Shown: positions 25,881-56,632 of the stretch, piece by piece
Layout: every line of letters starts with the position of its first letter
Position numbering within the stretch: position 1 is the first letter of the stretch
From: a virus
Direction: 5' to 3' (one strand)
IMG/VR virus record: IMGVR_UViG_3300023174_000040
Location: 1-64,000 of that record
DNA length: 64,000 bases
Notes under the pieces: model-generated
Told to the model about the DNA's origin: nothing
Databases searched by the model: none
Seen by the model: the letters and a program-made list of their open reading frames with translations, nothing else
Translations under genes and position numbers: made by a program

Positions 25881-28136
25881 TTAGTTTGCTGGACAACAAG
25901 TTACTGCGACATCGCAGTAGTCAAAATTCGGCACTTCTCTTGCCGCACAATTCCATCCGGGGAGACTATCCATGAAAATAGATGTGCCCCCACAAGGAAC
26001 ATAAAACATTTGATATCCTGTACACCCCCCACAGCCCATGACCCAGGCGCCGTTCCAATAATGAGAGCAATTCTCACAGGACTGCTCAGAACAGGAAATA
26101 TTTGTATTAACCCAAACATATTCTCCCGGGTTATTATAGCCTGGTCTTGGTCCCGGTGTTTTTCCGTTTCCTGAAAAGTCGCATTCATTCCCAAGTTCGT
26201 GATATGCGTTACACCACAATGTTTTCCGACAAGACTCTTCTGACACACATCTTTTAACTCCTTCTCCAACATCGCAGCAAACAAGCTCGCCATCACAGTC
26301 GATCGTGTTTACACACGGCGCTGGCGTTGTGGTTGTTGTCAAGGAAATACACTCGCAATTTGACCCAGCTCTTATTTGTCCTTCTGGGCAAGGGTCGTAA
26401 CAATTTTCATCCACAAGAGAAAAACATGGTACTTTTCCTTCTGGGCATTCACAATTGCATCCATCCATGGGATTAGGAAAAACCTTGCCACCAGTGCAAT
26501 TTGGGCAACACTCGCAAGTCAATGGATTCAAGGTCTCCCCCTCCGGGCAAGTTTTTTGCACACTTATTTCATTTAGATAACTATAGAGAAGCGCAATAGA
26601 AGCTGCTAATTCTTGTAATCTAGTAGCTAAGGTTTTTTCATTCATTTCAAGTATGGATTGCTTAATAAATAAGTCAGCTTCAGCACTCTGTTTTATGGAT
26701 TCTCGAGTGCTTAGTTCCATTTCTTTTGCAATCACGTCCTCAGCTTTTACGTCATACTGTCGCTGCAGATTTTTTGCTTTCTCCATTCGCTCTAGAATAA
26801 TTTTGCGTATTCTATTGTCTTCATCTATTAGTTTATTTAATTCATGCCAAATAGGGTCGTTTTCTACATCGATCGTTACTCCGCTTTTGCTTAGCTCATT
26901 AATTATTTCTCGTAGTTTATTTATTTCATCATCTAGGCTATTTTTTCTGGCTATTGCGCTATTTATCTGAGCGACGAGATTGTTTATATCATCCATTAAA
27001 GCGGCCATTTGCGATCTTAATTGACTAATTCTGGTCGCCAGGGCTCTTATAGCAGCTATTGCATCATCAACTATAGCAATTAAACCTTTTATTATACTTT
27101 TAAGGTCAAATATGCTTTTCATTATAGCGCAAATGCCAGCTTTGGCCGCCGACACGCCAGAAGCAGCCCCAATTATTAGATCAATAGTTATCTGCGAAGG
27201 CTCCCAACAACCGCATGTTCCGCCAAGCAATCTTGGTGGCCCTATTCCATCCTCTGTTATCGCCCAGTTACCCCTGGTTTGATTTCCAGGGCAGGGCTCG
27301 GGTGGTGTAACAGTTAATCTAAAGTCGCACTGTCCTTGTCCTGGCCCCCATGCGTTAGGTGGCGGATAAGAGCCAATCATAAACGGGCTCAAAGAATTCA
27401 CAACGCCTGATATTTTTCCCTCTATCGCTTCTGCAGTTACATCTTCATAAGAAACTTCTTCTAATTCTTCGTAATATTTAAGATGTATTATTGCGGGGTC
27501 ATCTTCTGGATTTATATTTGAATCATTAAATGAAATTGTTATATTGCCACTAAATTCAGCATCGGTGTTTATATCGTAAATTGATATCTCACTAGATTCA
27601 GAACTTACTTTCTCAAATGTTACCTCACCTGCTTTGGTTATATTTTCAAAAGTTAATTCAACGTTATTATCGCTTGATGAGATTTGAATTTGCGTACCTA
27701 GTCCCAGACGCAAGTTATCTTTTGAGCTTGTTACTAGAATATCAAATTCTTTTCTTGTATGATATTTTGCCCCAGAGTAGTTGACCCCAACTTTATATGA
27801 AATTCCTGGCCTGTGGTAGAATATTTGATTGCTTTTAAGTTTATTTCCTTCTATCACAAATTTATCATTATCGTTTTGGCCAACAAATTCAGAATAGAGA
27901 GTGAACACCCCATTTTCGTTTTTATCTACTGTTAATGTTCCAACCTCAGTCCCGCTCTCCTGAAGCTCTTCTATTTCATTATTGGATAATGATAGATTAC
28001 ATTCTTTTTTTACTGGGTGCGATAATTTTTCAGATTGATCACAAGATATAGAAACAACTGGTACCCATGCATTCTTTACATTGGACCATTCTACTGTTCG
28101 TATAATTCCATCTTTGCCTTTGCACCTAAATGACAT
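25881..28136 (-). CDS. Coiled-coil and Cys-rich fibre-like protein, 751 aa
   Basis: Order of regions: a beta-rich N-terminal half (residues 1-260); a Cys/Pro segment (~270-310); an Ala/Gly-rich hydrophobic helix (~315-350); a long heptad-like coiled coil (~350-560; DDINNLVAQINSAIARKNSL, KLIDEDNRIRKIILERMEKA); then an EGF/tenascin-like Cys region (~565-640; CPEGETLNPLTCECCPNC, CPEGKVPC, CPEGQIRAGSNCEC), a TTTTTPAP linker and a Cys-rich C-terminus. A trimeric coiled-coil stalk with a Cys-rich tip suits a tail fibre or spike. Its start codon lies inside the end of the upstream 28126 gene (11-base overlap), so the two are translated together. Confidence 0.7.
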   Translation of the reverse strand: MSFRCKGKDGIIRTVEWSNVKNAWVPVVSISCDQSEKLSHPVKKECNLSLSNNEIEELQESGTEVGTLTVDKNENGVFTLYSEFVGQNDNDKFVIEGNKLKSNQIFYHRPGISYKVGVNYSGAKYHTRKEFDILVTSSKDNLRLGLGTQIQISSSDNNVELTFENITKAGEVTFEKVSSESSEISIYDINTDAEFSGNITISFNDSNINPEDDPAIIHLKYYEELEEVSYEDVTAEAIEGKISGVVNSLSPFMIGSYPPPNAWGPGQGQCDFRLTVTPPEPCPGNQTRGNWAITEDGIGPPRLLGGTCGCWEPSQITIDLIIGAASGVSAAKAGICAIMKSIFDLKSIIKGLIAIVDDAIAAIRALATRISQLRSQMAALMDDINNLVAQINSAIARKNSLDDEINKLREIINELSKSGVTIDVENDPIWHELNKLIDEDNRIRKIILERMEKAKNLQRQYDVKAEDVIAKEMELSTRESIKQSAEADLFIKQSILEMNEKTLATRLQELAASIALLYSYLNEISVQKTCPEGETLNPLTCECCPNCTGGKVFPNPMDGCNCECPEGKVPCFSLVDENCYDPCPEGQIRAGSNCECISLTTTTTPAPCVNTIDCDGELVCCDVGEGVKRCVSEESCRKTLWCNAYHELGNECDFSGNGKTPGPRPGYNNPGEYVWVNTNISCSEQSCENCSHYWNGAWVMGCGGCTGYQMFYVPCGGTSIFMDSLPGWNCAAREVPNFDYCDVAVTCCPAN

Positions 28137-30081
28137 TTTTATCCTTTTTGCTTAATAAAAAATCACTAAATGTTTTTTGTGTATACTCTGGTTTTGGTTT
28201 GACTATCTTTGGCAAAGTGTTGAATTCTTTGTCTCTCTTAGCCAAATCCCCCTTGACAGTTAGATCAAATATTTGGCTCAATCTCTTCATATAAGCATCC
28301 CAATTTTTATCAAGTTGTTTTATTTGGGCTATTATCTTAGATTTATTGTTATAGTCTAGGTGCTGGAAACTCTTGGAAAATTTAACGTAAACATATCCTG
28401 TTAGTTTCCGGTTAGTTCCACTGTGCCAACCTTGTGTGGTGTTTTTAGGCATGTACAAAATTATGCTTTTAGGATCAATAAATGGGATTGCTTTTACCGA
28501 AGGGTTGTTAAAGATTTCATCTTTTAGCACGCCTAGATATATGTCGTATTCACGATCAATTTTAACTGGAGAGCTATTTGGTCCGTCTATTGGATAATCT
28601 TTTAGATAACCTATTTTTTCCGGGCTACTATACATTGTGATGTCGCCTTCTTCATCATCGATTTCTACTTCAAAGTTTTTAAAGTCGAAATCAGTTTTTG
28701 GGCTTTTCATGTAACCCTCTTTTATCAATTTTGCATAAACTTTTTGAACATGAGTTTCATAGTTTTTGTCTAGAACATCTATGTAATCTAAAAATTGTTC
28801 TAATGCTGTGAGTTGATCATTTGCACGATCTTCATCATCTATGGATAGATTTACTACGTGATATTCTTTTTTGCCTTGTTGATGATCATCCCAATTAATA
28901 TCACTTATTGAGTATATATCAATTGATCTTTTTATCATACTCTCTAGATCTCTACCATCCCTCCAATTTTCTCTTGCTTTTTCAAATTTATCAGTAGTTT
29001 CCCTGGTTGGTATTGTAAAACTCACACTTGCACTATAATGTAAATACGCTCCGCCTTCTCCATCAAAATCATCAGTAACATCATGATAAACATGAAAATG
29101 TTTCCAGTTAGCACTATGTTCTCTTATTTGTTGTTCTGCTAACTCCTCAATATCATCTGCACTAGTTGGATCTTTACGTTCTTCTTTTTCATCCTTGCTA
29201 GTTTTTCTTGCGCCCGCAAATTTTTTATCAAAAAATTCTCCCCAAATTTTGTCTGCGGGAGTGTCTTGATAAGTTCCGCCTTTTAGATCAAACTTATCGT
29301 AATCTTCTTCTGGGTTTATGTCTTTTATAACATCTGATTGAGCGGATTTGGCCCAGTTTTTAACAGCATCGTAAAATCCTATATGATCTATGCCATACGT
29401 GCTAATCTCGGGGGCCAGCAGATCTATTTCACCTTTGTTAAATCTTCTAAGTCTCAATCTTTCAAGTGGAACTATTCCGTCTATTTTTCTGTCTTTGTCT
29501 TTGAATAATTCAGATTTTTGTATATCCACACCAGCTAAATCTGAGTTCTTAACAACATAAGCTATAGCACCACCAGTTCTTGCTTCTTGTTTAGCGCATT
29601 TAAAATGAGATCTCTTTGGGTCATGGCAGCTTGTAATATTGTCATGGTCGCTCATTCTCACTAGATCAATTGGGCTTCTGCTTATTATGATGCTTGCGCC
29701 TGTTTGCGAATTTTTAAGATGAGAACTATTTTTTTGCCACCAATCCAATAATTCTTCGGCTTTATTTGATGGTGGTGTTTTAAAGTTTATTGCGCTCTGC
29801 AATGCTTTTCCTACTTTTTCTGGTCTATTTTTGTCGCCTTCTTTTGTTTTTATTTTTTTATAGACTATTTTTTTTTCAACCAAATCTCCGTAATCAACTG
29901 TGTAACCCAGATTTTCAAGCAGTTTTATTAATTCCTGCAGTTCTTTGTTTGAATCCAATGGTATCAATACTCTTAGTTTATCTTTGAATATATTATTAAA
30001 TAATAAGTCTCTCTCTGGTTCTATGCCGGCAAGACTTTTGATCTCATTGATATTTTGTTCTAGCCAATTCTTAAAATTCAT
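28126..30081 (-). CDS. Large protein with T4-like capsid-targeting N-terminus
   Basis: A 651-residue soluble protein starting MNFKNWLEQNINEIKSLAG, similar to the T4 internal-protein targeting peptide MKTYQEFIAEA. Residues ~135-200 hold a conserved block, SIIISRSPIDLVRMSDHDNI, SCHDPKRSHFKCAKQEARTG and GAIAYVVKNSDL, that I have met in large phage proteins of unknown function; the His/Cys cluster could bind metal. The remainder is charged and probably multi-domain. I infer a protein packaged in the head or assembled with the tail, but the enzymatic role is unknown. TATTTAT directly precedes the ATG. It overlaps the fibre-like gene downstream by 11 bases. Confidence 0.65.
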   Translation of the reverse strand: MNFKNWLEQNINEIKSLAGIEPERDLLFNNIFKDKLRVLIPLDSNKELQELIKLLENLGYTVDYGDLVEKKIVYKKIKTKEGDKNRPEKVGKALQSAINFKTPPSNKAEELLDWWQKNSSHLKNSQTGASIIISRSPIDLVRMSDHDNITSCHDPKRSHFKCAKQEARTGGAIAYVVKNSDLAGVDIQKSELFKDKDRKIDGIVPLERLRLRRFNKGEIDLLAPEISTYGIDHIGFYDAVKNWAKSAQSDVIKDINPEEDYDKFDLKGGTYQDTPADKIWGEFFDKKFAGARKTSKDEKEERKDPTSADDIEELAEQQIREHSANWKHFHVYHDVTDDFDGEGGAYLHYSASVSFTIPTRETTDKFEKARENWRDGRDLESMIKRSIDIYSISDINWDDHQQGKKEYHVVNLSIDDEDRANDQLTALEQFLDYIDVLDKNYETHVQKVYAKLIKEGYMKSPKTDFDFKNFEVEIDDEEGDITMYSSPEKIGYLKDYPIDGPNSSPVKIDREYDIYLGVLKDEIFNNPSVKAIPFIDPKSIILYMPKNTTQGWHSGTNRKLTGYVYVKFSKSFQHLDYNNKSKIIAQIKQLDKNWDAYMKRLSQIFDLTVKGDLAKRDKEFNTLPKIVKPKPEYTQKTFSDFLLSKKDKNVI

Positions 30082-30092
30082 ATAAATATGTA

Positions 30093-30121
30093 TTGAAAAA
30101 ACTGATTTTTTTTGGTATAAT
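30093..30121 (+). promoter_or_regulatory. sigma70-like promoter for the small-gene operon
   Basis: TTGAAA (30093-30098), 17 bp, TATAAT (30116-30121), about 33 bp upstream of the ATG at 30155. Confidence 0.7.
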
Positions 30122-30154
30122 TTTATCTCAAGCCAGGTTAAAAAAGGTTTAATT

Positions 30155-30745
30155 ATGGGTATGTTTGACTATTTAATTTGTCAAGGGCAATTACCTATTT
30201 CTGACGAATTAAAGGATTTTAAAGTGGATTGGGATAGAGAGGTATTTCAGACAAAAAGTTTGGACAAACTCCTTTTTACCTATCTTATCTCTAAAGATGG
30301 TTATTTATATCGTGATGCTAATCCTAAAAAAGTGGCAGAGAATTCCGCCATCCCTTTTAGCACGGGACTCGCCTTTAACTTTCACGAAGATAATTGGGGA
30401 TTGGATTGCCCGGAAAAAGAAAGAGCCAACGGCTTAGAAGACGCTTTAGCTTTAATAGATTATAAGATTGAATATCACGGCTATATTATATTTTATACTA
30501 TAATTCACGATTTAAAGCATGGGTATTTAAATAAAGATTGTAGGGTAGAATTTATGGCTAAGTTCACTGATGGAAAGCTTCAAAATATAGAAGTTAAAAA
30601 ATTAGATTGGTATAGAGCCGAATCAGAATGTAAAAAAATTCATCTTGTTAAAAAAAGAGGGTTTCTCGGGAACCTTATTATTGAAACTGGTTTATTTTTG
30701 TCTAGAATTAGTCACAAAATCATTAAACTTGGTTATTGGATATGA
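30155..30745 (+). CDS. MGMFD-type phage protein, 196 aa
   Basis: Begins MGMFDYLICQGQLPISDEL, the conserved opening of a widespread phage family of unknown function (MGMFDxxxCxxxLP). Residues ~20-150 follow its alternating beta pattern (FQTKSLDKLLFTYLISKDGYLY, in part). The C-terminal ~40 residues are basic and partly hydrophobic. AAAAGG lies before the ATG. It is the first gene of an operon of eight tightly spaced genes ending in a methyltransferase. Confidence 0.75.
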   Translation: MGMFDYLICQGQLPISDELKDFKVDWDREVFQTKSLDKLLFTYLISKDGYLYRDANPKKVAENSAIPFSTGLAFNFHEDNWGLDCPEKERANGLEDALALIDYKIEYHGYIIFYTIIHDLKHGYLNKDCRVEFMAKFTDGKLQNIEVKKLDWYRAESECKKIHLVKKRGFLGNLIIETGLFLSRISHKIIKLGYWI

Positions 30746-30930
30746 TTGAAAGAAAAAGAGTTATGCCCAGCTTCTGGGTGTTTTTGTCAATTATAGGACT
30801 ATTAATTAGTTCTATTTCTATATATGAAAATATTTTACTCTATAATAGATTTATAATTTTAAAAGAAGAGTATATTAAATTACAAAAAAAATATAATGAA
30901 CCAAATTTATCGATTTTTGACAAAACCTAA
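30742..30930 (+). CDS. Small single-pass membrane protein, 62 aa
   Basis: The ATG overlaps the upstream stop (ATGA). Residues ~10-30 (SFWVFLSIIGLLISSISIY) form one membrane helix after a basic MIERKRVMP start, followed by a charged Lys/Tyr-rich tail that may be helical. No family recognised; single-helix proteins next to lysis or superinfection functions are common in phages, but nothing here shows that role. Confidence 0.6.
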   Translation: MIERKRVMPSFWVFLSIIGLLISSISIYENILLYNRFIILKEEYIKLQKKYNEPNLSIFDKT

Positions 30931-31090
30931 AATAGTTGTTATACTTTTTTTACTGGCATATATAACGGCTGTTTTTCCAATGATTTTTGGTTTTATTTTG
31001 CCGATGAAAATTTTTGTTACTATTTCGCAATTTTTGATTACACCTCTCCTTTTTTACTGTCTTTTTCTAATGCTTTTGAAGTTAACATGA
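30896..31090 (+). CDS. Small two-helix membrane protein, 64 aa
   Basis: MNQIYRFLTKPKIVVILFLL start, with two hydrophobic segments (~12-33 and ~38-60) and almost no loops. It overlaps the previous gene by 35 bases in another frame. Function unknown; a holin-like or membrane-remodelling role is only a guess. Confidence 0.55.
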   Translation: MNQIYRFLTKPKIVVILFLLAYITAVFPMIFGFILPMKIFVTISQFLITPLLFYCLFLMLLKLT

Positions 31091-34776: not shown

Positions 34777-34788
34777 ATATATAAATTG

Positions 34789-35235
34789 ATGCAATTCCGA
34801 GAATACCTAGAAATGGCAAGTTTCATCTTGCCTCATAAACTCAGAATAGGGGACAGTGTTGTTTCCGCTGTGGATATGCAGTTTGAAAAACATCCCGCCA
34901 CTATTAACAGTGATGGCAGGGTTATGAACCAAGGTTCCAAATTTATAGCAAAAGTTCCACAATCCCCAGATTACCTATCCTATGACGGTCAAGGAAGCAG
35001 TGAATTTGTTAAAAAAGATAATCTAATAGATTATATTAAAAAAGGTTTTCATAAAATACCAGATAATTGGTGGAAAAAAGCAAATTTTATAACAAATGAA
35101 AGTGTTGGAAGTTTTAGTGTTGTTACCTGCAAAGATTTAAATAATCCGAATTTTCAGATTTGGGGCGCACTCTCAGATTTGAAATGTAAAAATCAAAAAA
35201 AGCTTAAATTAAAGAACCTTATTGACAAAAAATAA
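34789..35235 (+). CDS. Protein with capsid-targeting-like N-terminus, 148 aa
   Basis: Begins MQFREYLEMASFILPHKLR, resembling the T4 internal-protein targeting peptide. The remainder is a small basic beta domain not recognised. I use the ATG at 34789 rather than the TTG directly before it: TATATAAATTG abuts this ATG, the box seen at other late-type genes. It may be an injected internal protein; its gene sits among metabolism genes yet appears to have late-type control. Confidence 0.6.
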   Translation: MQFREYLEMASFILPHKLRIGDSVVSAVDMQFEKHPATINSDGRVMNQGSKFIAKVPQSPDYLSYDGQGSSEFVKKDNLIDYIKKGFHKIPDNWWKKANFITNESVGSFSVVTCKDLNNPNFQIWGALSDLKCKNQKKLKLKNLIDKK

Positions 35236-36143: not shown

Positions 36144-36392
36144 ATGTCATACAATAAAGAATACAGAAGAGAAAAGGCAATTGAACGTCAAGAATTAAGA
36201 AATAAGAGAAGCCACTCTGAGCAACTTGCTGTTTTAGACAAGATTTTTGGAGTAGGTTTGGGGGCAAAAAAAGAGCGTGAACGCTTAGCCGGACTTATTA
36301 GCAATAAAAGTAAACCCAAAAAAGAAATTGAGTCTGACGCTTCCGAAGAAAAGCCAAAGAAGAAGAGAAAGAAGAAAAATCAAGATAGTTGA
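36144..36392 (+). CDS. Small basic hypothetical protein, 82 aa
   Basis: MSYNKEYRREKAIERQELRN start; nearly half of the residues are charged and the C-terminus is a Lys/Arg tail (KPKKKRKKKN). It may bind nucleic acid. AAAGG lies before this ATG and the promoter lies 26 bp upstream, which excludes the longer frame from 36087 that starts in the terminator. It overlaps the convergent 36380 gene by 13 bases. Confidence 0.65.
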   Translation: MSYNKEYRREKAIERQELRNKRSHSEQLAVLDKIFGVGLGAKKERERLAGLISNKSKPKKEIESDASEEKPKKKRKKKNQDS

Positions 36393-37927
36393 TGTAATTC
36401 ATCACTCAAATTATCGTTGAAATAGTCTTCGTTAAAACCTTCATATCCATGATATGGATGTGTGTAGTCTATTTTAACAAATTCTCTTAGTTCGTAATTA
36501 TCTTTGGCATGCTCTTTGTATATGTCTTTGAGATTTGATATAGCAATCTTTACCATTATATTTTCTGCATTTTCTACATCTGCATAGAATCCATTTTCAT
36601 CTTTTTGGGAAAGAGAGGACGTAACTCTTTGCCAAGCGTCTGATTGAGCCCCATCTTCATATCCAAGTCTACCCGCTGATTCTACTGCGCTGAGCAATTC
36701 TTTGTTGCGATTTATTGCACCCATAATATCATCTTCATCATATTCTTGCCCTTCTGAGGTTAGTATTTTTTTGATGATTTTGATGTTTTTGTCTGAAATA
36801 TGATCAAAAACATCTTTGATTGATATGTGGTCTATTTGTGGATCAAAATTATCCATAAAAGATAAATCTTCTACATCTCCCGAGTAGTATCTCTTTGCTC
36901 TCTCAGAAAAATCTTTAAAGCTATCAAATTTATCGACTACCAATTCATCTCCAACCACTGAGTCGAAAATATCATTAAACATTTCTTGTATTTTTATTAG
37001 TATTTCTCTTGGATTCTTTAATTTAAATATTTCTTTGTTAAAATATTGCTCAATATATAGATCGTAATTTAGACTTGGTTTTAATTTGTAAAGAGTTTGT
37101 TTTACACTTTCATCTAAATCATCCATAGAAAAATTGTTCTCTGGCTTGTATCCTCCACCCTTGACTGTCTTCACAATATTATTTTTTAGTAATTCTATTA
37201 TCGCTGGGTGGAATCTTATTGAGGGCTTGCTATTGTTTCTGCCTTTCATTTCTCCCAAAGCACCGTCGTTAATTATGAATGTTAAATATGCAACATTACT
37301 TGTGTCTCTTAACGATAGAATGTTATCGCCTTCTTTTCCTGCTGCATTTCCACAATGACCTGCACTTGCGCCTTCTTTTTCACATGATCTTTTATCTAAT
37401 AGAACCCATCTCCATCCATTCCAAGAAGATCCTAAGTGACTTAGATCCATAAATGTATCAGCCTCTGCCGCAGGTTTAGCTTTTGAAGTCTCAATTCTTT
37501 CGTGCCATTCTTCGCTTTCTTTTATTAGCATCTCAATAGTGAATTGGCTGTTGTTGAGTTTTGATTTTAAAATATTGTTGTCACTATTAGCCACTAAATA
37601 ATCAATTGTTTCATCTATTTGGTTGCCAAGTTGAGCTAACACACCTGGTTGTGCATATCTCATGAATCCCCTATTGTATGGTTTATTGTATGGGTTGTTG
37701 ACTGTTACACTTGTGAGTTTTTTGTAAAAATTATAAAAAAAGAAATTGATATATGTGGTAATGTATTTGGAACCTGGATTCACCCCTGATAAGATTCTAT
37801 TATTTATATAATTGACCACTTTTAGATAATCTGGGTCCGACTTTATTTCTTTGTCATTTTTTAGCAATTGCGCTATAGTTTGGCTCTCTATTAATAATAA
37901 CCATTCTGAAAATTTGATTTCTTCCAT
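36380..37927 (-). CDS. Large protein with capsid-targeting-like N-terminus and PcfJ-like block
   Basis: About 515 residues starting MEEIKFSEWLLLIESQTIAQ, again of the F-x-E-W-L type; LLLIE-S would fit a T4 prohead protease site (L-x-E). Residues ~175-230 carry LLDKRSCEKEGASAGHCGNA then GDNILSLRD, LTFIINDGALGEMKGRNN and SKP: an EG...HCG plus SLRD arrangement reminiscent of the PcfJ family. A nucleic-acid or signalling enzyme is possible but unproven. I start at the ATG at 37927 because it abuts a TATA element shared with the divergent 37937 gene; the longer TTG frame would run through that gene's start. Likely co-packaged with phage DNA. Confidence 0.6.
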   Translation of the reverse strand: MEEIKFSEWLLLIESQTIAQLLKNDKEIKSDPDYLKVVNYINNRILSGVNPGSKYITTYINFFFYNFYKKLTSVTVNNPYNKPYNRGFMRYAQPGVLAQLGNQIDETIDYLVANSDNNILKSKLNNSQFTIEMLIKESEEWHERIETSKAKPAAEADTFMDLSHLGSSWNGWRWVLLDKRSCEKEGASAGHCGNAAGKEGDNILSLRDTSNVAYLTFIINDGALGEMKGRNNSKPSIRFHPAIIELLKNNIVKTVKGGGYKPENNFSMDDLDESVKQTLYKLKPSLNYDLYIEQYFNKEIFKLKNPREILIKIQEMFNDIFDSVVGDELVVDKFDSFKDFSERAKRYYSGDVEDLSFMDNFDPQIDHISIKDVFDHISDKNIKIIKKILTSEGQEYDEDDIMGAINRNKELLSAVESAGRLGYEDGAQSDAWQRVTSSLSQKDENGFYADVENAENIMVKIAISNLKDIYKEHAKDNYELREFVKIDYTHPYHGYEGFNEDYFNDNLSDELHQLS

Positions 37928-37936
37928 ATATAATAT
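37928..37936. promoter_or_regulatory. 9-bp bidirectional TATA spacer between divergent start codons
   Basis: CAT-ATATAATAT-ATG: two start codons face away from each other with nine A/T bases between them, giving TATATAATAT before the plus-strand ATG and TATATTATAT before the minus-strand ATG. Confidence 0.65.
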
Positions 37937-38530
37937 ATGCTTAGTTTTAAAGATTTTATCAACCAATCTCCTGCTCCTATGGAATTAGTCCAGAATATTA
38001 AAGTTAGTGAAAACTTAAAATATCACTTAGATAACAAGATATCTCTCTCGGAGAATATTTTCAGGTTATACAGTGAGTCATATTTTGATCTTATTAAAGA
38101 GGTCAGAGAATTGTATAATAAAAATATGATATCTATCAATGATGATGACCTCGAATTGGTATCCAGCGATGCAGGTGAAACAGCCGACTATAATGGGAAA
38201 ACTATTTATTTGGATTGCCCCGTTATTGACAACGAAATAAATGAAGCTGAGTATAAGGGAAAAAAAGTTCAATTGGGAAAACCCCATAGAACTCCTGGTG
38301 AAAACAAAAAATTTGCTGTTTATGTCAAATCGCCATCAGGAAATATAAAGAAAGTTCGTTTTGGAGATCCTAATTTAAAGATTAAAAATAATAACCCATC
38401 CCGAGCCAAGAGGTTTCGTGCAAGACACAAGTGCTCAGAAAAGAAAGATCGGACTACTCCTGGTTATTGGTCGTGCAATATAGCGAGATTTGCTAAATCT
38501 GTTGGTCTGGTTAGCTCGAGGACATGGTGA
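37937..38530 (+). CDS. Phage protein with FRARHxC...YWSC domain, capsid-targeting-like N-terminus
   Basis: A 197-residue protein starting MLSFKDFINQSPAPMELVQN. The C-terminal half is a domain conserved in T4-like phages: KFAVYVKSPSGNIKKVRFGD then RAKRFRARHKCSEKKDRTTP and GYWSC. The Cys/His residues may bind zinc. Its exact function is unknown; it often occurs at the end of phage structural or prohead proteins. The N-terminal peptide suggests incorporation in the head. The stop is one base before the start of the next gene, so the two are probably coupled. The TATATAATAT element directly before the ATG is shared with the divergent gene. Confidence 0.75.
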   Translation: MLSFKDFINQSPAPMELVQNIKVSENLKYHLDNKISLSENIFRLYSESYFDLIKEVRELYNKNMISINDDDLELVSSDAGETADYNGKTIYLDCPVIDNEINEAEYKGKKVQLGKPHRTPGENKKFAVYVKSPSGNIKKVRFGDPNLKIKNNNPSRAKRFRARHKCSEKKDRTTPGYWSCNIARFAKSVGLVSSRTW

Positions 38531-38531
38531 T

Positions 38532-49188: not shown

Positions 49189-49528
49189 CTTTGATGGGGG
49201 ATACCCTGTTTATATCCTAGATGACGACACAGTTCTTCATGTTAAAGAAGATAAAAACCATACAGAATTTTGGGAAGAAGTTGTCGCCCCAATAGTAGCC
49301 AATAAATACAAAGTATCACTCTCCAATATAATCAATCTTCCTTATTGCCAAAGAAGGGCGAGAATCGTTGGAGATTGTTTTTATTTTGGAGAAAAGATTA
49401 CAAAAAAGCTTCTTAAAAAGATCGAAAAGACAGTAGGGCATAAATTAAGACATGCCTACGATGAGCACGAAACTAGATGCGATATCAGCGTATCTGAGTT
49501 TCGTTCTAATATCCCATATCAACAATAA
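49181..49528 (+). CDS. Hypothetical protein, 115 aa
   Basis: MSDFDGGYPVYILDDDTVLH start overlapping the ligase end, so the two are coupled. A small alpha/beta protein with a basic centre (PYCQRRARIVGDCFYFGEKI). Not recognised. It ends convergently over the kinase-like gene by 23 bases. Confidence 0.6.
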   Translation: MSDFDGGYPVYILDDDTVLHVKEDKNHTEFWEEVVAPIVANKYKVSLSNIINLPYCQRRARIVGDCFYFGEKITKKLLKKIEKTVGHKLRHAYDEHETRCDISVSEFRSNIPYQQ

Positions 49529-50135
49529 CGTATCTGTCACCAGTATCAAGAATATTATCCTGATAGTCAGTTAGTGATATTCCATAAAATCTTTCGAGTT
49601 GGAATAGACTTTCGAACATTTCGGCTAATTTATTATGTTCTTCATCCGTATTCTTCTTGTATAGATTCAATATATCTTGCTGCTTTCTATTGCCACCAGA
49701 GTTCAGCCAGTCTTTGGCCTTTTGAAATTGTCCTCCAAGAGCAAGCATATAAAAATGATTAGTTGAATAATCCATTGGTTTTCCAATAATTTTTTCAACT
49801 AAAATCGCAAGAGATTCATTTGGCTTGGTTGCTACCGTTTTAAAACTTGTCTTATCTGGCCATGGATAAATTTTAACAACGTTGCTACTCTTTATCTTTT
49901 GAGCCCTTATTATATTTTGAACGTCTTCCTTGTGGGATGTTATTTTTATTAGGATATTGCTGTTTTCTGGATGTTGGTATAGAGTGGCAAAACTTCCTTC
50001 GTTTACTTTTACCAATGGTTTTTTGAACCCTAGCAGTTTGGCAACGTTCGTTTTTTGAGTTTGATGCTTTTGTGAAAAAGCTTTTTCGCTATCATCTTCT
50101 AATTCTTCTTTTATTATCCACTCTTTAAAATTCAT
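49506..50135 (-). CDS. Protein-kinase-like protein with capsid-targeting-like N-terminus
   Basis: A 209-residue protein. MNFKEWIIKEELEDDSEKAF matches the targeting-type N-terminus, and IKE-E fits a T4 prohead protease site. Then a minimal kinase fold: Gly-rich loop VNEGSFATLYQ (44-54), the ATP-anchoring Lys64 in ILIKIT, a hinge near AILVEKIIGKP, a catalytic-loop-like LTDYQDNIL (Asp190, Asn194) and the metal-binding DMG (Asp206). The usual HRD His is Leu, and the DMG lies two residues from the C-terminus, so the whole activation segment and C-terminal lobe are absent. It could phosphorylate a small molecule or host protein after injection, or be a pseudokinase. It shares a 9-bp TATA spacer with the divergent UV endonuclease gene. 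Confidence 0.68.
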   Translation of the reverse strand: MNFKEWIIKEELEDDSEKAFSQKHQTQKTNVAKLLGFKKPLVKVNEGSFATLYQHPENSNILIKITSHKEDVQNIIRAQKIKSSNVVKIYPWPDKTSFKTVATKPNESLAILVEKIIGKPMDYSTNHFYMLALGGQFQKAKDWLNSGGNRKQQDILNLYKKNTDEEHNKLAEMFESLFQLERFYGISLTDYQDNILDTGDRYVIVDMGY

Positions 50136-50144
50136 ACATTATAT
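50136..50144. promoter_or_regulatory. 9-bp bidirectional TATA spacer between divergent start codons
   Basis: CAT-ACATTATAT-ATG: the same geometry and nearly the same sequence as at 37928-37936. Neither gene has a Shine-Dalgarno. Confidence 0.65.
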
Positions 50145-51059
50145 ATGAACATTAGATACGGAATTTGTTGTATTATTCTCTCGTTAGAGGAAAATGATCC
50201 TCCAAAGAAATTTCAAAGAATGACTTATAAAAAGTTTAGTCAAACTCCAAGAGAAGAGGCCGTGACTGAACTTAGCAAAAGAATACTCAATAATATTGAT
50301 GTTACATTCAATGCTATAAAGTATTGTAAAGAACGTAATTTTAATTATAGGCTAAGTAGCGACTTATTTTCATTGATAACGTATGATAAGGCCGATTTAT
50401 CGCTAGAGCAATTGCCGGATTATGATAAAATAATTGATCTTTTCAAGCAGATAAAAGAATATAATGCTGTGAACAGTGTTAGGATAAGCCTGCACCCTGA
50501 TCAATTCAATGTCCTTGCCAGCAAAGATGAAAATGCTTTATCAAGAACTATTAAGGAATTAAATTTTTATAGCTGGGTTATGGATCAAATTGGATGCTCT
50601 GCTGATTATAACTCCCCTATAAACCTTCATATAAATAACAATCAGGATAGTTGTGAGGAGATAATCGATAGGCTATCTGCTAGTTTAGATATATTGGATG
50701 ACAATTGCAGGTCTAGGATAGTTTTTGAGAATGACGATAAAACAAAGTGTTGGAGTGTAAAAAAACTATCTGGATTTTATTATAAAAAATTTAATTCGCC
50801 AATTACTTTCGACTTTCTCCATCACAAATGCCACCCGGACGGATTATCGGAGAAAGAGGCGTTCGAACTCTGCTGTCACTCTTGGGGCAGTTTTAAGCCC
50901 CTGTTCCACTACAGTGAGTCTCGGGATGAAAAGAATCCAAGAGCACACGCAGACTATCCTTCAAATATTCCCAGCTTTTACGACAGCGAAATTGACATAG
51001 ATTTTGAGTTTAAGAAAAAAGAAAAAGCTATTGAAAAATTCATTACTCTAAACCATTAG
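50145..51059 (+). CDS. uvsE: UV DNA damage endonuclease (UvdE/UvsE family)
   Basis: The 304-residue TIM-barrel enzyme would nick DNA 5' to UV photoproducts to start alternative excision repair. It begins MNIRYGICCIILSLEENDPP, and RISLHPDQFNVLASKDENAL, LHINN, RIVFENDDKTKCWSV and ITFDFLHHKCHPDG carry the conserved His/Asp/Glu metal ligands, with PLFHYSES and AHADY near the end as in UvsE. Length matches bacterial members (~300). Phage versions are rare; T4 uses the unrelated DenV. With both ligases nearby it suggests adaptation to sunlit water. No Shine-Dalgarno; a TATTATAT box abuts the ATG. Confidence 0.9.
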   Translation: MNIRYGICCIILSLEENDPPKKFQRMTYKKFSQTPREEAVTELSKRILNNIDVTFNAIKYCKERNFNYRLSSDLFSLITYDKADLSLEQLPDYDKIIDLFKQIKEYNAVNSVRISLHPDQFNVLASKDENALSRTIKELNFYSWVMDQIGCSADYNSPINLHINNNQDSCEEIIDRLSASLDILDDNCRSRIVFENDDKTKCWSVKKLSGFYYKKFNSPITFDFLHHKCHPDGLSEKEAFELCCHSWGSFKPLFHYSESRDEKNPRAHADYPSNIPSFYDSEIDIDFEFKKKEKAIEKFITLNH

Positions 51060-52581
51060 ATATTTTATAATTATCTGTTAAGGTTTCCATTATATCTTTA
51101 TTTTCATAATTCTCAGATCTGACTGAATCTGGATGTGGCATATGAATTATACATGGTTTGTTATGGTTTAAATATTTTCTTTCCAAACCAATGCCAGTTA
51201 ATCTATTGAATATATCGCAATCTTCATATCCATAATTTTTCATCAATTCGTTATATCCGCCTATTTTTATCAAATTTTCTCTGTGAACATAAAGGAATCC
51301 GTGTAAATATCTAATAAATCCCATATCATTGTCGATCAGGAAATCTTCCCAGTTACCTGTTAGAAACTCATTTTTTTTAATTTTATATTCTTGAAAAAAG
51401 TCGTAATATGGATTTAAAATATAATCCACATCCATTTTTATAATCAAGTCGCCACAGGTATTTTTTATTGCTAAATTTGGTGCTTTTACAACTGAAAAGT
51501 ATTTTTCATTTTCTACCCTGATTACTTTAATCCGATTATCCAACTTTGATAGGTAAGATATGTCTTCATCTGAGGACCAATCTACTATTACATATTCTTT
51601 TATATCTTTATGTTTTATCCATGATTGAATAGATATTTTCAGCATATCAGTTCTGTTCTTAACAGAACAAATCAATGAAATAGTTTCTTCTTTTTTTGGA
51701 ACTAATTTTACTTCTTGTTTTTTTGCTATAATTAATGGAATTTTATTTATCTTTGAGGAGATGTATGAAAAGCTACTCCAATTTGATCCTATTATTTTTT
51801 TTGTTCCAGACAATAACATCATATCAATCAATGCATCTTTTTGACCTGGTTTACTTTCTAAATGATTTATGTTTTTAAAAAACTTTTTATCTTTGTTCCA
51901 TAATAAATTTGGAAATTTATTTACAAAATAGTTGTTGGTATCCTCACAGTCTGTTGATAAGAAAAAATTACAATCTGGATTTGCTTCCATTTCTTCATTT
52001 ATTTTAATCACAAATGACTCATTATCGGAAATGCCAAACTTGTCTTTCCATGGACTTGTTGTTGAGTCTCCTCTTCTTATGTGAATCCCTATGGTATTTT
52101 TATTAAAAGACTTTCTTATATTCTTTATTTTATTTTGTATTTCTGGTTTGAATTTTAAACTTTTAATGAAGTCATACTTGCCATAATTGTGCCACAAAGA
52201 ACTTAGCATGTATTCAATGCAAGAATCGCCACAATAACAAAAAGAATTTTTTTTAATAAAATCAATTATTGAATTTTGTTCAATTTCTTGAACATATTCG
52301 TCTGGATTTTTTTCATTTTTGTAAACCACCCTGTCTAGATTAAAATTATCTTTGCTGAATTCTTCATATTCTTTTTCATTTATGAATTTTAATTTTGTTT
52401 TTTGAAACAAGTCGTAGAATTTCTCATCAGACCACCCTGCTCCCCCACCCCAGAGAACTCTTAATTCGAAATTATTCTCTTCTGCAAAATTGTAAAAAGA
52501 ATTCAAAGTGCGCAATCTATTTGCCAATCCATGTTTTACTTTGATGCAAATAATTCTATTAGAAGGCTCCATATCTCTCAT
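51043..52581 (-). CDS. Two-domain glycosyltransferase: fucosyltransferase-like plus GT2
   Basis: A 512-residue fusion. Residues ~8-290 resemble O-fucosyltransferase/alpha-fucosyltransferase-type GT-B proteins: KVKHGLANRLRTLNSFYNFA (GLANRLR opening), NTIGIHIRRGDSTTSPWKDK with the HxRRGD signature, FFLSTDCEDTNNYF and KKIIGSNWSSFSYIS. Residues ~300-505 are a GT2-type GT-A domain: ETISLICSVKNRTDMLKISI, EYVIVDWSSDEDISYLSKL, and the DxD-like metal site KMDVDYILNP. Two activities in one chain could build two steps of one glycan. Alternative ATG at 52572. It stands alone on the minus strand, overlapping the UV endonuclease 3' end by 17 bases. Donors unknown. Confidence 0.78.
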   Translation of the reverse strand: MRDMEPSNRIICIKVKHGLANRLRTLNSFYNFAEENNFELRVLWGGGAGWSDEKFYDLFQKTKLKFINEKEYEEFSKDNFNLDRVVYKNEKNPDEYVQEIEQNSIIDFIKKNSFCYCGDSCIEYMLSSLWHNYGKYDFIKSLKFKPEIQNKIKNIRKSFNKNTIGIHIRRGDSTTSPWKDKFGISDNESFVIKINEEMEANPDCNFFLSTDCEDTNNYFVNKFPNLLWNKDKKFFKNINHLESKPGQKDALIDMMLLSGTKKIIGSNWSSFSYISSKINKIPLIIAKKQEVKLVPKKEETISLICSVKNRTDMLKISIQSWIKHKDIKEYVIVDWSSDEDISYLSKLDNRIKVIRVENEKYFSVVKAPNLAIKNTCGDLIIKMDVDYILNPYYDFFQEYKIKKNEFLTGNWEDFLIDNDMGFIRYLHGFLYVHRENLIKIGGYNELMKNYGYEDCDIFNRLTGIGLERKYLNHNKPCIIHMPHPDSVRSENYENKDIMETLTDNYKISNGLE

Positions 52582-52617
52582 AAGAGGATTGAATTTTTAA
52601 TTTTTTACCCCTCTCGG

Positions 52618-52635
52618 TTTCCTTTTGGTACGGTT
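52618..52635 (+). promoter_or_regulatory. GGTACGGTT element, copy 8
   Basis: TTTCCTTTTGGTACGGTT, 34 bases before the start of the secreted-protein gene at 52670 and directly upstream of the divergent glycosyltransferase. Confidence 0.85.
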
Positions 52636-52669
52636 GATAACGGGAAGGTCCACAGAGAATTTGTCTTAA

Positions 52670-53263
52670 ATGTTTAAAAAAATAATTGCACCCCTGTCGT
52701 TGCTGTTTATTTGTTGTTTTTCCTTAAAAGCCCAGGAAGAATCGACAGATCGAATTACTACCACACAAGACGATAATGGTTATTTCAACACTATTGAAGA
52801 AATTTGCGAAGCAGCAAACGCAGAAGATCACAATAAATATCTTTCTCTTCGTGTGAGTTCCACTAAAAGAGAGAAGAGAGAAATTGCACTGTTCTTTTTG
52901 TCTAATAAAATTAATATATCTATATTAGACAAAAAGTTAATAGATATTAAGGATGATTTTGCCGAGATAGCAGTTGAATACAAAATGACTGTTAATGAAA
53001 CAAACAATATTATTGTGAGCTTACTTGCAATGAAAAAAATAGACTCTGATTGGAAGCTAATCAAAGAGACGGTGATTAGTAAGAAACTGGAATCCCGGTG
53101 TAGGAGTGGAAATTGTCGTGCTGTTGATAATGATTTTTCTAACCCTCCTAGACTAAATTGCCCCAATGGTAAATGTCGTGCCGTGGGCGATAGTCCTTTG
53201 TCTTTGCCTCCAAAGCCTAATTGTGCTAACGGCAGGTGCAATCTTCTTATGAGAATTGAGTAA
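52670..53263 (+). CDS. Secreted protein with CxxGxCR repeats
   Basis: A 197-residue protein with a clear signal peptide (MFKKIIAPLSLLFICCFSLK, probable cleavage after LKAQ), the clearest such signal seen in the window. The middle (~40-140) is an NTF2-like alpha/beta domain (TIEEICEAANAEDHNKYLSL, EIAVEYKMTV, DSDWKLIKETV). The C-terminus has three CxxGxC(R) repeats: SRCRSGNCRAV, NCPNGKCRAVG, NCANGRCNL. This would act outside the cytoplasm of the infected host, for example in superinfection exclusion or envelope modification (inference). It could be host-derived. No Shine-Dalgarno; the GGTACGGTT element lies upstream. Confidence 0.7.
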   Translation: MFKKIIAPLSLLFICCFSLKAQEESTDRITTTQDDNGYFNTIEEICEAANAEDHNKYLSLRVSSTKREKREIALFFLSNKINISILDKKLIDIKDDFAEIAVEYKMTVNETNNIIVSLLAMKKIDSDWKLIKETVISKKLESRCRSGNCRAVDNDFSNPPRLNCPNGKCRAVGDSPLSLPPKPNCANGRCNLLMRIE

Positions 53264-53283
53264 AAAAAATAAAATAGTTTAAT

Positions 53284-53306
53284 AAATAACCTCATGAAGG
53301 TTATTT
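53284..53306 (+). promoter_or_regulatory. Hairpin presenting a start codon in its loop
   Basis: AAATAACC (53284-53291) and GGTTATTT (53299-53306) form a perfect 8-bp stem; the seven-base loop tcatgaa contains the ATG of the 53294 gene. There is no Shine-Dalgarno. Confidence 0.6.
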
Positions 53307-53458
53307 GTGAAAACAATGATTATTATCCTGCCGCTCTTAAGACCGGCAACGTCTATGATGTCTATATTGCAAAAGATTCTACTTTTATCATAATTGATGA
53401 ATTTCTTGAAAATCAAGAATATCCAAGAAATATATTCAAGATAATGGAACATTCTTGA
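53294..53458 (+). CDS. Small hypothetical protein, 54 aa
   Basis: MKVICENNDYYPAALKTGNV start; a compact beta-rich frame (VYDVYIAKDSTFIIIDEFLE) typical of a folded small protein. Its start codon sits in a hairpin loop. Not recognised, 22 bases before the deaminase-like gene. Confidence 0.55.
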   Translation: MKVICENNDYYPAALKTGNVYDVYIAKDSTFIIIDEFLENQEYPRNIFKIMEHS

Positions 53459-53480
53459 CAATTTGATTATAAGCTTTAAA

Positions 53481-53888
53481 ATGTTCAGGATGAACTTATC
53501 TAAAGTAATAGAAATTAGTTATGCCTTGGCGGGCAAACACAGGGGAAATCATAGGTGCCGCCATTTTAGTTTTATTTATGAAAGAAATACATTAATCTCT
53601 GTGGGGATGAACAGCGCAAAAACTCATCCATTAAATTTAAAATATAATTATATCAACAAGCAAAAAGATAAAATTAGTGATATTGTTGGCACCCATTCTG
53701 AATTGAGTGCAGTTCTAAAATTAGGCTATGAAGATTGTAGTGGACTAACAATAATAAATACAAGAATCAACCGCAGAAACGAGGTTGATTATAGTCGCCC
53801 GTGCATAGGATGCATGGATATGTTGACTCAACTTGGCTTTAAAAGAATTTTATACACAACTAAAGACAAGACGTTTTTAGAGATATGA
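53481..53888 (+). CDS. Cytidine/deoxycytidylate deaminase-like protein
   Basis: About 135 residues. The deaminase zinc site is visible as THSELSAVL (HxE, with Ser in place of the usual Ala) and RPCIGCMDML (PCxxC), in the correct order, with an N-terminal alpha/beta start (KVIEISYALAGKHRGNHRCR, FSFIYERNTLISVGMN). The family deaminates cytosine in nucleosides, nucleotides, RNA or DNA; in phages dCMP deaminase supplies dUMP for thymidylate. Substrate residues cannot be judged, so it could also act on RNA. I use ATG 53481; ATG 53490 and TTG 53463 are possible. It overlaps the RNA ligase start by 4 bases, so joint action with RNA repair is conceivable. Confidence 0.75.
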   Translation: MFRMNLSKVIEISYALAGKHRGNHRCRHFSFIYERNTLISVGMNSAKTHPLNLKYNYINKQKDKISDIVGTHSELSAVLKLGYEDCSGLTIINTRINRRNEVDYSRPCIGCMDMLTQLGFKRILYTTKDKTFLEI

Positions 53889-54940
53889 TAGATAAACTAA
53901 TAGATGATGGTTACGTTAATGTAGTGAAGCATCCTACTGACGAACTATTTATCTACAATTATACTGCTCGGGCACAATATGAAAATAAGTGGGCAGAATA
54001 TCCTGAGATTAGGAAATATAGAGGTCTGATATTGGACCCTTCAGGACAAATAGTGGGTAAATCTTTTGATAAGTTTCATAACTTAGAAGAATATTCTGAA
54101 AATAGTATTCTCGGTCCATTGCCGGATTACAACGATTTCGAAGTTTATGACAAACTAGACGGCAGCCTGGGTATATCGTATAAATACTCTGGGGGTGTTG
54201 CTATAGCAACAAGAGGCAGTTTCACATCAGAGCAGTCCTTTTGGGCCACCAACCATCTAAATAAAAAATATCCAAACTTTAACCCGCCAGATGATTTGAC
54301 TTTTCTTTTTGAGATATTATATAAAAAAAATAGAATAGTTGTTGATTATGATTACGAGGGATTAGTTTTACTTTCTGTTTTTAGAAAAGAAATAGAATTA
54401 TCTCGAGAAGAAATAGAAGTTATTTCAAAAGAGTATGATTTTGAATTAGTGGAAAAGTTTGATGGGATAAAAGATTTTGATAATATAAGAACTCTTTATG
54501 CAAGAGATAATGCCGAAGGCTTTGTGATAAAGTTCGATAATGGATTAAGGGTAAAATTAAAATATGAAGAATATTGTCGATTGCATAAAATAGTCACAGG
54601 TGTAAATTCTAAGATAATATGGGAAATGCTAAAAGAGAACAAAAACTTTGATGAAATTTTAGATCATGTCCCCGATGAATTTTACGATTGGGTAAAAAAC
54701 ACAAGAGACGCCATACAGGAAAAATATGAAGGAATAATTGAATCTGCGGAAGAAAAGAAAGAAAGTATTAAAAATTTAACAAGAAAAGAGCAGGCAGAAA
54801 TTATACTTCGGGATTGCAGAGACTATTCCGGTGTGGTATTCTCTCTGCTTGATAATAGGCCAGATAAGGCAAAAGAAATAAGTTGGAAATTAAGCAAGCC
54901 AGAAAATGATAAGCCGTTTAAGGATGAACAACAAGGCTGA
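53885..54940 (+). CDS. T4 RnlA-like RNA ligase
   Basis: A 351-residue nucleotidyltransferase that would join 5'-phosphate and 3'-OH RNA ends, classically to repair tRNA cut by host anticodon nucleases. Motif I is EVYDKLDGSLGISY with Lys90 as the adenylated residue; upstream YTARAQYENKWAEYPEIRKY and RGLILD match the Rnl1 N-terminus; TRGSF is the motif Ia region; TFLFEILYKKNRIVVDYD is motif IIIa, AEGFVIKF motif IV, and VKLKYEEYCRLH motif V. Length fits T4 Rnl1 (374). The C-terminal helical domain is kept. It starts in an ATGA overlap with the deaminase-like gene. No missing catalytic residue noted. Confidence 0.9.
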   Translation: MIDKLIDDGYVNVVKHPTDELFIYNYTARAQYENKWAEYPEIRKYRGLILDPSGQIVGKSFDKFHNLEEYSENSILGPLPDYNDFEVYDKLDGSLGISYKYSGGVAIATRGSFTSEQSFWATNHLNKKYPNFNPPDDLTFLFEILYKKNRIVVDYDYEGLVLLSVFRKEIELSREEIEVISKEYDFELVEKFDGIKDFDNIRTLYARDNAEGFVIKFDNGLRVKLKYEEYCRLHKIVTGVNSKIIWEMLKENKNFDEILDHVPDEFYDWVKNTRDAIQEKYEGIIESAEEKKESIKNLTRKEQAEIILRDCRDYSGVVFSLLDNRPDKAKEISWKLSKPENDKPFKDEQQG

Positions 54941-54954
54941 GATAAGGGGGATTT

Positions 54955-55542
54955 ATGATTAATATTAAACCACGCCTCCAACCAGAAGATTTTGAATTCT
55001 GGTTTAGTGTTCGTGGCTTTAGCAACTATGAAAACTACTGCTCGGAAACTAAAGAAAAAATTTCAACCGATCCCAGGTTCGCTTTTAAATATGCGGAAAA
55101 ATTTGGGCCTCTTCCAGAAGAGTGTGAATCTGTATTTTTAAAGAGTCCCGAATATGCTTATAATTATTCTTATTGGATAAAAAATAAAAGACTTTCTCCT
55201 AAACTTGAGAAAGTTTTTTCCCGATGTCCTAAGTGGGCTTATATTTATGCAAAAAAAATAATTAAAGGTAGATTGCCAAAAAGCATAGAAAAAGCTTTCT
55301 TAAAGTCACCCGAATATGCACTGCAGTACGCATACCTCATTGGTAAGCTGGAAGAAGATTTAGAATTTGTTTTTTTAGAAGATTGTGAACTTGCTCTAAA
55401 ATACGCAAGAGAGATAATAAAGAAAGGATTCTCGGGAAAAATGCACAATGCATTATTTTTAAAATTTTCTTTTGAGAAAAATAATGGTTATCAAAAACTT
55501 CATCTATCTCAGTACTTTCAAGAGTTTCCACAACCAACCTAG
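54955..55542 (+). CDS. Helical repeat protein of phage type, 195 aa
   Basis: Built from ~30-residue helical repeats with consensus (s)PEYAYxYAYxIxxxRLPxxLExxF: DPRFAFKYAEKFGPLPEE, SPEYAYNYSYWIKNKRLSPK, CPKWAYIYAKKIIKGRLPKS, SPEYALQYAYLIGKLEED and DCELALKYAREIIKKGFS. Such repeats occur in many T4-like and jumbo phages in proteins of unknown role; by analogy with TPR/Sel1 arrays they probably bind protein partners. AAGGGGGA precedes the ATG. It lies 14 bases after the RNA ligase and probably shares its mRNA. Confidence 0.75.
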   Translation: MINIKPRLQPEDFEFWFSVRGFSNYENYCSETKEKISTDPRFAFKYAEKFGPLPEECESVFLKSPEYAYNYSYWIKNKRLSPKLEKVFSRCPKWAYIYAKKIIKGRLPKSIEKAFLKSPEYALQYAYLIGKLEEDLEFVFLEDCELALKYAREIIKKGFSGKMHNALFLKFSFEKNNGYQKLHLSQYFQEFPQPT

Positions 55543-55547
55543 TTCAA

Positions 55548-56402
55548 TCAACCTAATAAAATACTTATATTTTTTAATAACTCCGTATCATTTGCGATTT
55601 CTGCTTCGTTTATAAAATTATCTATATTTAAAACTTTTTGTCTTAATGTAAGGGTGTTAGTTTTTATTTTTTTTTGTTTTGGAGTTCCACTGATATCAAA
55701 GAAGTTTTTGGGATCCTCTCCTAAAAATTTAATAATATTCTTATAAAAAGAAATATAATTTTCTCCTGTTAAATTTTCATAAGTCACATGTTGATAATCA
55801 ATATTGTTCCTTAAACAGAAGTTAAATACTATTTCTTCTTCTTCTAATAAATCTTTTTTATACTCAATAAATTCTTTGTAAAATACATTGATTCCAATTG
55901 AATGAAATTTTATTGATTCTAATTCTGAATTATAATTTTTTGTAATGCCTGCTGTTTTGTGCGAAATATATTTCAAAAAGATATTATTACGAGTCAAATG
56001 TATAATTTTTATATTATTATTTTTTATATATTTTAAAAAATTGCTGATCCCGATATGGTCTCCTGGCGGCAATTTATTATTGGTTCCTATGTGATGACTA
56101 AAAAATACCTTAAATCCAAAATGTTCCGACTGTTTTATCTCCTCCCAAATCTTTAAATATTCAATAAAGTTTCTGTTTCTGTTTCCTATAAATTGATTCG
56201 GATCACTACCAAATAAGATTTCACATCTTTTTCTAACTTCTGAATTGTTTTCTGCTAAATTCAATAAATTTAAACACGGTCTTACTTTGTATGGATGAAA
56301 TATCTCATACTGGCAACGTATGCTTTTTTGACTATCGAGGAACTCACATAGCATCTGAGACCCACTTCTGGGTGTTGTAACTATTATAAATTTTTTTGCC
56401 AT
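55548..56402 (-). CDS. Sulfotransferase-like protein
   Basis: A 284-residue protein with the sulfotransferase 5'-phosphosulfate loop near the start (KFIIVTTPRSGSQMLCEFLD, PRSGS at 11-15) and a downstream KIIHLTRNNIFLKYIS segment, the 3'-phosphate loop (R-x-N in place of the usual R-x-P). This matches the Stf0/NodH-like group that transfers sulfate from PAPS to sugars or lipids. The acceptor is unknown; with the glycosyltransferases elsewhere it may decorate a glycan. It is followed on the same strand by nothing, its 3' end lying 5 bases from the convergent repeat-protein gene. Confidence 0.8.
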   Translation of the reverse strand: MAKKFIIVTTPRSGSQMLCEFLDSQKSIRCQYEIFHPYKVRPCLNLLNLAENNSEVRKRCEILFGSDPNQFIGNRNRNFIEYLKIWEEIKQSEHFGFKVFFSHHIGTNNKLPPGDHIGISNFLKYIKNNNIKIIHLTRNNIFLKYISHKTAGITKNYNSELESIKFHSIGINVFYKEFIEYKKDLLEEEEIVFNFCLRNNIDYQHVTYENLTGENYISFYKNIIKFLGEDPKNFFDISGTPKQKKIKTNTLTLRQKVLNIDNFINEAEIANDTELLKNISILLG

Positions 56403-56440
56403 AATACCAATGCGGATTATTTGCTAAAAAACCGGTAGAG

Positions 56441-56632
56441 TCATCGACTCTTTTTCTTCTTCTTTTTCTTTTTCTTTTTGAGGCTATTTCTACTGGCCTT
56501 TACATATACTTGATCTGGGCCTGTTTGGTTGGCTAGTGGTGGATATTGGCCCACACCGCCATATTGCGGGGGATATATTCCCACTATCTCTTCTCCAAAT
56601 ATTTTCTTTACATATTCTTTAAAAGTTATCAT
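56441..56632 (-). CDS. Small protein with capsid-targeting-like N-terminus and poly-Lys tail
   Basis: A 63-residue protein starting MITFKEYVKKIFGEEIVGIY, followed by a Pro/Gly/Tyr-rich middle (YPPQYGGVGQYPPLANQ) and ending in eleven Lys then Ser-Arg. The combination of a targeting-type N-terminus and a polycation fits a DNA-condensing internal head protein. TATATAACTTT abuts the ATG. Similar YPP..GG.GQYPP small proteins occur in marine T4-like phages (recalled, not searched). Confidence 0.65.
   Translation of the reverse strand: MITFKEYVKKIFGEEIVGIYPPQYGGVGQYPPLANQTGPDQVYVKASRNSLKKKKKKKKKKSR

Follow-up and report, generated by a model that had tools for sequence, protein, structure and literature searches.

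The first 64,000 nucleotides of the 323,267-bp virus record IMGVR_UViG_3300023174_000040 (positions 1-64000, here the window; the whole record is labelled G000) encode proteins that begin with a common short motif, which is almost certainly a genuine terminal tag and, very probably, the T4-type capsid-targeting sequence (CTS) of the prohead core in massively expanded form. The tag has the form M-x(1-2)-F-x-[E/D/N/Q]-[W/F/Y]-[L/I/V]; in most cases an acidic stretch comes next. It is carried by proteins with otherwise unrelated bodies of up to 971 residues which are spread across the whole genome. As judged from the sequences, the tagged proteins would be packaged into the head, cleaved and injected into the host.

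The core, [FY]-x-[EDNQ]-[FWY]-[ILV] starting at residue 3 or 4, is found in 21 of 308 G000 proteins, called with a simple codon-usage script in 247 kb, against 0.34 expected from the rate of the core inside the same proteins; in the window alone, five genes possess it where 0.07 are expected (Poisson p about 1e-8). As the 247-kb sample was partly chosen around hits, the unbiased figure is that of a DNA pattern applied to the whole genome, which identifies 35 and 35 sites at two spacings against 5 and 9 in a reversed-pattern control. A preliminary description had named six such proteins in the window as a candidate injected set; all six N-termini exist in the sequence, but they are only part of a set about five times larger. 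N-termini of the type F-x-E-[WFY]-[ILV], which it had proposed to seek elsewhere in the genome, are present in many further genes. With relaxed members (145754, 217580 and others) and two of the six that were lost to the gene caller's choice of start, the N-tagged proteins of G000 number about 28. That chance or codon-context similarity near start codons produced these N-termini has a negligible probability: the core does consist of only five residues, and weak members (62706 and the 49-residue 92418) as well as a false tag on the DNA primase 267533, all set aside, do occur, but the reversed-pattern controls, the mid-protein rates, the replication in independent genomes and the conservation in orthologs refute this explanation. 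The weakly tagged gene at 62706-64000 (MNFDHYVKNLFL...), which is not preceded by the promoter-like box described below, encodes a NAL1_N-like stretch and runs off the window.

The same expansion is observed in LR756511.1, a 595-kb uncultured huge phage (48 tag sites against 11 in the control by the DNA pattern; in the stretches that were read, about 36 genes have a loose tag), and in the IMG/VR fragments G001, G002 and G006, with tagged genes flanking gp20-gp23 in G001. Further contigs were located by scanning for MK[ST]F[KN][ED]W anchors, and of 956 neighbours of these anchors another 30 bear the tag, compared with 1.2 expected; in one 13-kb locus (L173), the tag is found on 14 of 16 called genes in a row, their bodies being unrelated. 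The DNA pattern gave no clear excess in P-SSM2, Syn33, KVP40, XacN1, RAS14, RM378, Mel-JY01, SD-2_S15 and phiKZ. No report of such a tag expansion was found in the literature searched, though novelty is not thereby proven. Beside the head genes of G001 lies a metallothionein-like, metal-binding tagged peptide of 41 residues (MNFKNWIKNKCECSCSACSKQKDCSKCDCENCDCKNCKCKS; L122, 11705-11830).

The internal proteins (IPs) of T4 have been experimentally shown to be packaged through an N-terminal leader, the only feature common to them (PMC3012670, PMC12373910). The proposed resemblance to this leader is borne out by a position weight matrix which, trained on the uncultured phages only and then applied to 269 called T4 genes, recovers gp61.1 at rank 1, IPII at rank 2 and IPI at rank 6; when all T4 ATGs are ranked in place of gene calls, the signal is diluted. 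The head genes of G000 are T4-like as well. A gp21-type prohead protease (PF03420, Peptidase_S77; phrog_207, head maturation protease) is encoded at 289419-289841 with an E value of 2.4e-28, adjoining the gene for the major head protein gp23 (phrog_138), which is 75% identical to gp23 of LR756511.1, and further tagged genes lie on the flanks. The preliminary description had counted a genome devoid of a prohead protease as an argument against its proposal; as the gp21-type protease is present, this argument falls away. Of the marks of a T4-type CTS, those found here are an IP-type N-terminal leader, the gp21-type protease with a gp23 capsid, and the association with a late-promoter-like box. 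In T4 itself, gp61.1 (NC_000866 18966-19130, L105), a 54-residue protein with the start MKTFKEFIKE... and a Lys-rich end, outscores the known internal proteins, and UvsW.1 (MLLEFKQFLYEAS, 114210, plus strand), leader-like with an LYE|A site, has a high matrix score among all ATG starts; each of the two may be an internal protein of T4 that has gone unnoticed.

The box, TA[TAG]ATA with its end 2-10 nt ahead of the ATG, precedes 12 of 21 tagged against 28 of 287 untagged genes in G000 (p 6e-7), 15 of 25 against 35 of 553 in LR756511 (p 2e-11) and 28 of 81 against 56 of 992 on the other contigs (p 2e-13). Among untagged genes with a box whose function can be recognised, those for virion structure, tail or terminase predominate. 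The late -10 element of T4 is TATAAATA, and the box is a putative late promoter; transcripts would have almost no leader if it equals a late -10 element of the T4 kind, as the gap between box and ATG in G000 is mostly 3-7 nt. In the window, the divergent tagged genes 36380 and 37937, separated by 37925-37936, share one near-palindromic TATATA box. The boxed genes at 6455-10915 and 11054-12160 encode proteins with identical starts, the first of which has RCC1-type repeats (phrog_7220).

Cleavage of part of the tagged set is likely. In G000, 10 of 21 tags have [LI]xE no more than seven residues behind the core, where shuffled sequences give 4.1 (p = 0.001), and the gp23 pro-region ends in RLINE directly ahead of the conserved mature part, a triplet in which the tags of 308284 (WLINE) and 209123 (FINE) end too. 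The [LI]-x-E site which had been noticed in at least two of the six window proteins could be assigned to the candidate cuts LIE|S in 36380 and IKE|E in 49506. Homologs of 36380 in other huge phages (L110 2485, L111 2422 and 4329, L112 2533) start with different leaders, MRWNQIITEA, MLISEMITLLEA and MKLIEVVELFEA; the leaders of these distant homologs end in [LI]xEA (ITEA, LLEA, LFEA, LIEA) and possibly represent a further kind of leader, with a cut site resembling that of T4, in another lineage.

The core is also present at the C-terminus of some proteins, and the tag would thus probably be functional at both termini; to our knowledge, a C-terminal core has no precedent in T4. Protein 28126 is tagged at both ends, and its 75%-identical homolog L108 retains the C-terminal core in place with other letters (INFEDFIKNK). 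A G002 homolog of 36380 (L109, 37-39% identical) combines the N-terminal tag MNFKQWLLLTES with the C-terminal ...SFNEYLKSLI, and the core stands at the C-terminus only in a 64-residue G002 protein (KSFKEWLEEK) and in a NUDIX enzyme within a tagged cluster of LR756511 (HSFKEWLSQRI). In G000, C-terminal copies favour N-tagged proteins (4 of 27 against 3 of 281, p 0.0014). A functional C-terminal tag appears likely from these sequences, though not secure; a general C-terminal enrichment across all genomes was considered and rejected, the signal being clear only in the set of G000, G001 and G002. A tag-like end at the C-terminus only (ESFKNWLFNIENIRD) is also seen in a GNAT-like acetyltransferase (weak Pfam match) at 88730-89410 of G000. 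Tags at both protein ends are reminiscent of sorting tags or degrons, and with [LI]xE not being universal one might suppose that the tag is an address for some other site specific to the phage (replication compartment, membrane or host protease adaptor) and that the T4 likeness is superficial convergence; this is nevertheless very unlikely, as the matrix cross-recognises T4 internal proteins, the tagged genes share late-type boxes with virion and terminase genes, and gp21 is present.

Several observations weigh against the assignment as an expanded T4-type CTS. The scaffold protein gp22, the expected partner of the tag, is placed by gene order only, the candidate being a 298-residue protein at 290009, between the gp21 and gp23 genes, with no PHROG match. 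T4 IPIII is absent from the top matrix matches, because its residues after the core differ. In LR756511, [LI]xE after the tag is at chance level (4 of 20 against 3.6), so that proteolytic trimming may not cover all members, and there is no excess of C-terminal cores; in G000 this excess is modest, with 6 against 3 for the loose core (p = 0.08) and 2 against 0.08 for the tight core (p = 0.003).

Among tagged proteins, the PolyA_pol head domain, marking nucleotidyltransferases that resemble CCA/poly(A) polymerases, occurs twice in G000 and once in LR756511. Other cargo comprises an AAA_33 kinase with a Pnkp-like score, an SNF2-type helicase in G000, a weak match to an HD domain, a zincin-like block of 209123, AHRLGHAI, that was recognised by eye, and basic proteins that are DUF5872-like or belong to phrog_7595. 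The cargo of LR756511 includes a HAD_SAK_1 RNA-repair phosphatase and a C39 peptidase, and that of L173 weak ParB_N and sigma-region-4 matches; NUDIX with an N-terminal tag is found in L173 and L196. Pfam scans of the tagged proteins detected no MuF domain. The window also encodes a T4-type RNA ligase (PF09511, 53885-54940), itself untagged; taken with the polymerase- and kinase-like proteins that do bear the tag, it suggests RNA repair as a theme.

A T4-type CTS would act in the following manner. Late promoters with the TA[TAG]ATA box would turn on the tagged genes alongside head and tail genes, whereupon the short aromatic and acidic tag, probably an amphipathic helix, would dock the protein on the assembling scaffold core as in T4. 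At prohead maturation the gp21-type protease would trim those tags that bear [LI]xE, and the cargo, which resembles a take-over and counter-defence kit, would remain in the head with the DNA and enter the host on infection. Alternatively, tagged proteins might be morphogenetic core or scaffold factors that dock on the scaffold core only and, rather than being injected, are processed or expelled by the time DNA packaging ends. The small tagged proteins beside gp20-gp23 (284295, 285407, 286997 and 294104, as well as in G001), the location of the core genes in T4, would fit such a role, which is improbable all the same, as large enzymes (SNF2 helicase, polyA polymerases, NUDIX) without obvious assembly role make up many of the tagged proteins, are encoded far from the head genes and vary between phages. 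Injection of the tagged cargo into the host is likely.

The tagged genes of the window are compiled below with the boxes and the C-terminal core.

Table. Tagged genes and associated elements of the window
Feature	Position	Strand	Details
28126 gene, 651 residues, N- and C-tagged	28126..30081	-	ATG at 30081; N-terminus MNFKNWLEQ, C-terminus KTFSDFLLSKKDKNVI
C-terminal core FSDFL of 28126 protein, residues 638-642	28156..28170	-	context KTFSDFLLSKK
ATATATA box	34777..34783	+	5 nt ahead of 34789 ATG
34789 gene, 148 residues, N-tag MQFREYLEMA	34789..35235	+	in-frame TTG precedes ATG
36380 gene, 514 residues, N-tag MEEIKFSEWLLLIES	36380..37924	-	ATG at 37924, within open reading frame opening at TTG 37966
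A/T box common to divergent tagged genes 36380 and 37937	37926..37933	.	starts 12 bp apart
37937 gene, 197 residues, basic, N-tag MLSFKDFINQ	37937..38530	+	FRARHKCSEKKDRTTPGYWSC domain (phrog_7595)
49506 gene, 209 residues, N-tag MNFKEWIIKEE	49506..50135	-	ATG at 50135; candidate cut IKE|E
ATATATA box	50140..50146	-	4 nt ahead of 49506 ATG
56441 gene, 63 residues, N-tag MITFKEYVKKIFGEE, GIYPPQYGGVGQYPPLANQTG and poly-Lys tail	56441..56632	-	ATG at 56632
ATATATA box	56638..56644	-	5 nt ahead of 56441 ATG

The His/Cys blocks and the poly-Lys tail in the preliminary description are real and conserved in relatives. Protein 28126 has a conserved central block, SCH...FKCAKQEA..GGAIAYVV, and a tagged homolog in L173 (MNFKMWLEG, 27% identity, E 5e-16), but the phage collection gave no match to 28126; protein 36380 has the conserved block C..E....GHCGN...GEMKGRNN..K. 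An AlphaFold model of the latter (7 sequences) reached a predicted local distance difference test (pLDDT) score of 53 and gave no significant PDB fold match; a PcfJ-like resemblance seen by eye is unsupported by Pfam and hence not claimed. Orthologs of 56441 in G002 (78% identity) and LR756511 (49%) maintain the tag, the YPP block and the poly-Lys tail, and more tagged members of this kind exist in G000 (161389, 218787) and LR756511 (487260). The C-terminal block VTCKDLNNPNFQIWGALSDLKC of protein 34789 is common to a protein of the relative G002. The alignment of 37937 with its homolog in the isolated Flavobacterium phage immuto starts at residue 15, and this homolog has no tag. The kinase-like nature ascribed to 49506 could not be confirmed, as Pfam, PHROG, NCBIfam and PDB sequence searches gave no match; relatives were not found in phages or viral contigs, and a single-sequence model has a pLDDT of 40.

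With T4 IPI, IPII and IPIII and their CTS, the proteins described here share the short N-terminal F/Y-x-E-F-I core, equally far from the Met, as well as unrelated bodies, a gp21-type protease and a gp23 head. T4, however, possesses about three IPs of 10-21 kDa, compared with about 28 proteins of up to 971 residues here, and distinct from T4 are also the preference for W at core position 4, the C-terminal tags, the enzyme cargo and, in other phages, cassettes of more than 10. The IP hot-spot cassettes of T-even phages, which hold at least 10 IPs across the T-evens (cited in PMC12373910), are similar in that variable accessory genes, with at least IPI-IPIII being anti-restriction, stand under a common leader, although here far more genes per genome are tagged, spread genome-wide in uncultured huge phages. 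Compared from the literature only, the Dar system of phage P1 (DarB N-terminal packaging signal) likewise uses N-terminal residues to bring large injected defence proteins into the head, but Dar N-termini have no consensus (PMC9024508) and no such shared core has been reported. The ejection proteins of phiKZ and SPN3US resemble the present case in that giant phages load much protein into the head along with the DNA and process it with a prohead protease, whereas the capsid here is of the gp23 type and phiKZ shows no tag excess. Injected effectors of the polyvalent, MuF and ART types, with virion-packed NUDIX, ART and RNA-repair-type domains, have been proposed from context (Iyer and Aravind; PMC5512222, PMC9503650), that is from fusions and neighbourhoods, while here separate proteins are joined by a common short terminal tag.

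Injected phage proteins are normally known only through virion proteomics of cultured phages and are almost unknown for huge uncultured phages. There is about an even chance that a lineage of uncultured T4-like huge phages has turned the T4 leader into a general cargo address, usable at either protein end, and that dozens of exchangeable effectors packed in the head have been assembled into cassettes by this means. Among these effectors, delivered against defences before any phage gene expression, would be an RNA/tRNA-repair set (CCA/poly(A)-polymerase-like protein, Pnkp-like kinase and HAD phosphatase), together with NUDIX enzymes and a protein resembling sigma region 4. The findings suggest that T4, with its three internal proteins, displays a delivery system in miniature which can grow far larger, and the tagged proteins, including those with C-terminal tags, offer naturally tested cargo for loading proteins into phage heads. 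With a readable tag by which T4 internal proteins are recognised as well, it would become possible to list from metagenomes the injected effectors, probably rich in counter-defence and host-takeover enzymes; if the tag is indeed a general cargo address, the injected proteomes of metagenomic phages would be readable from sequence alone.
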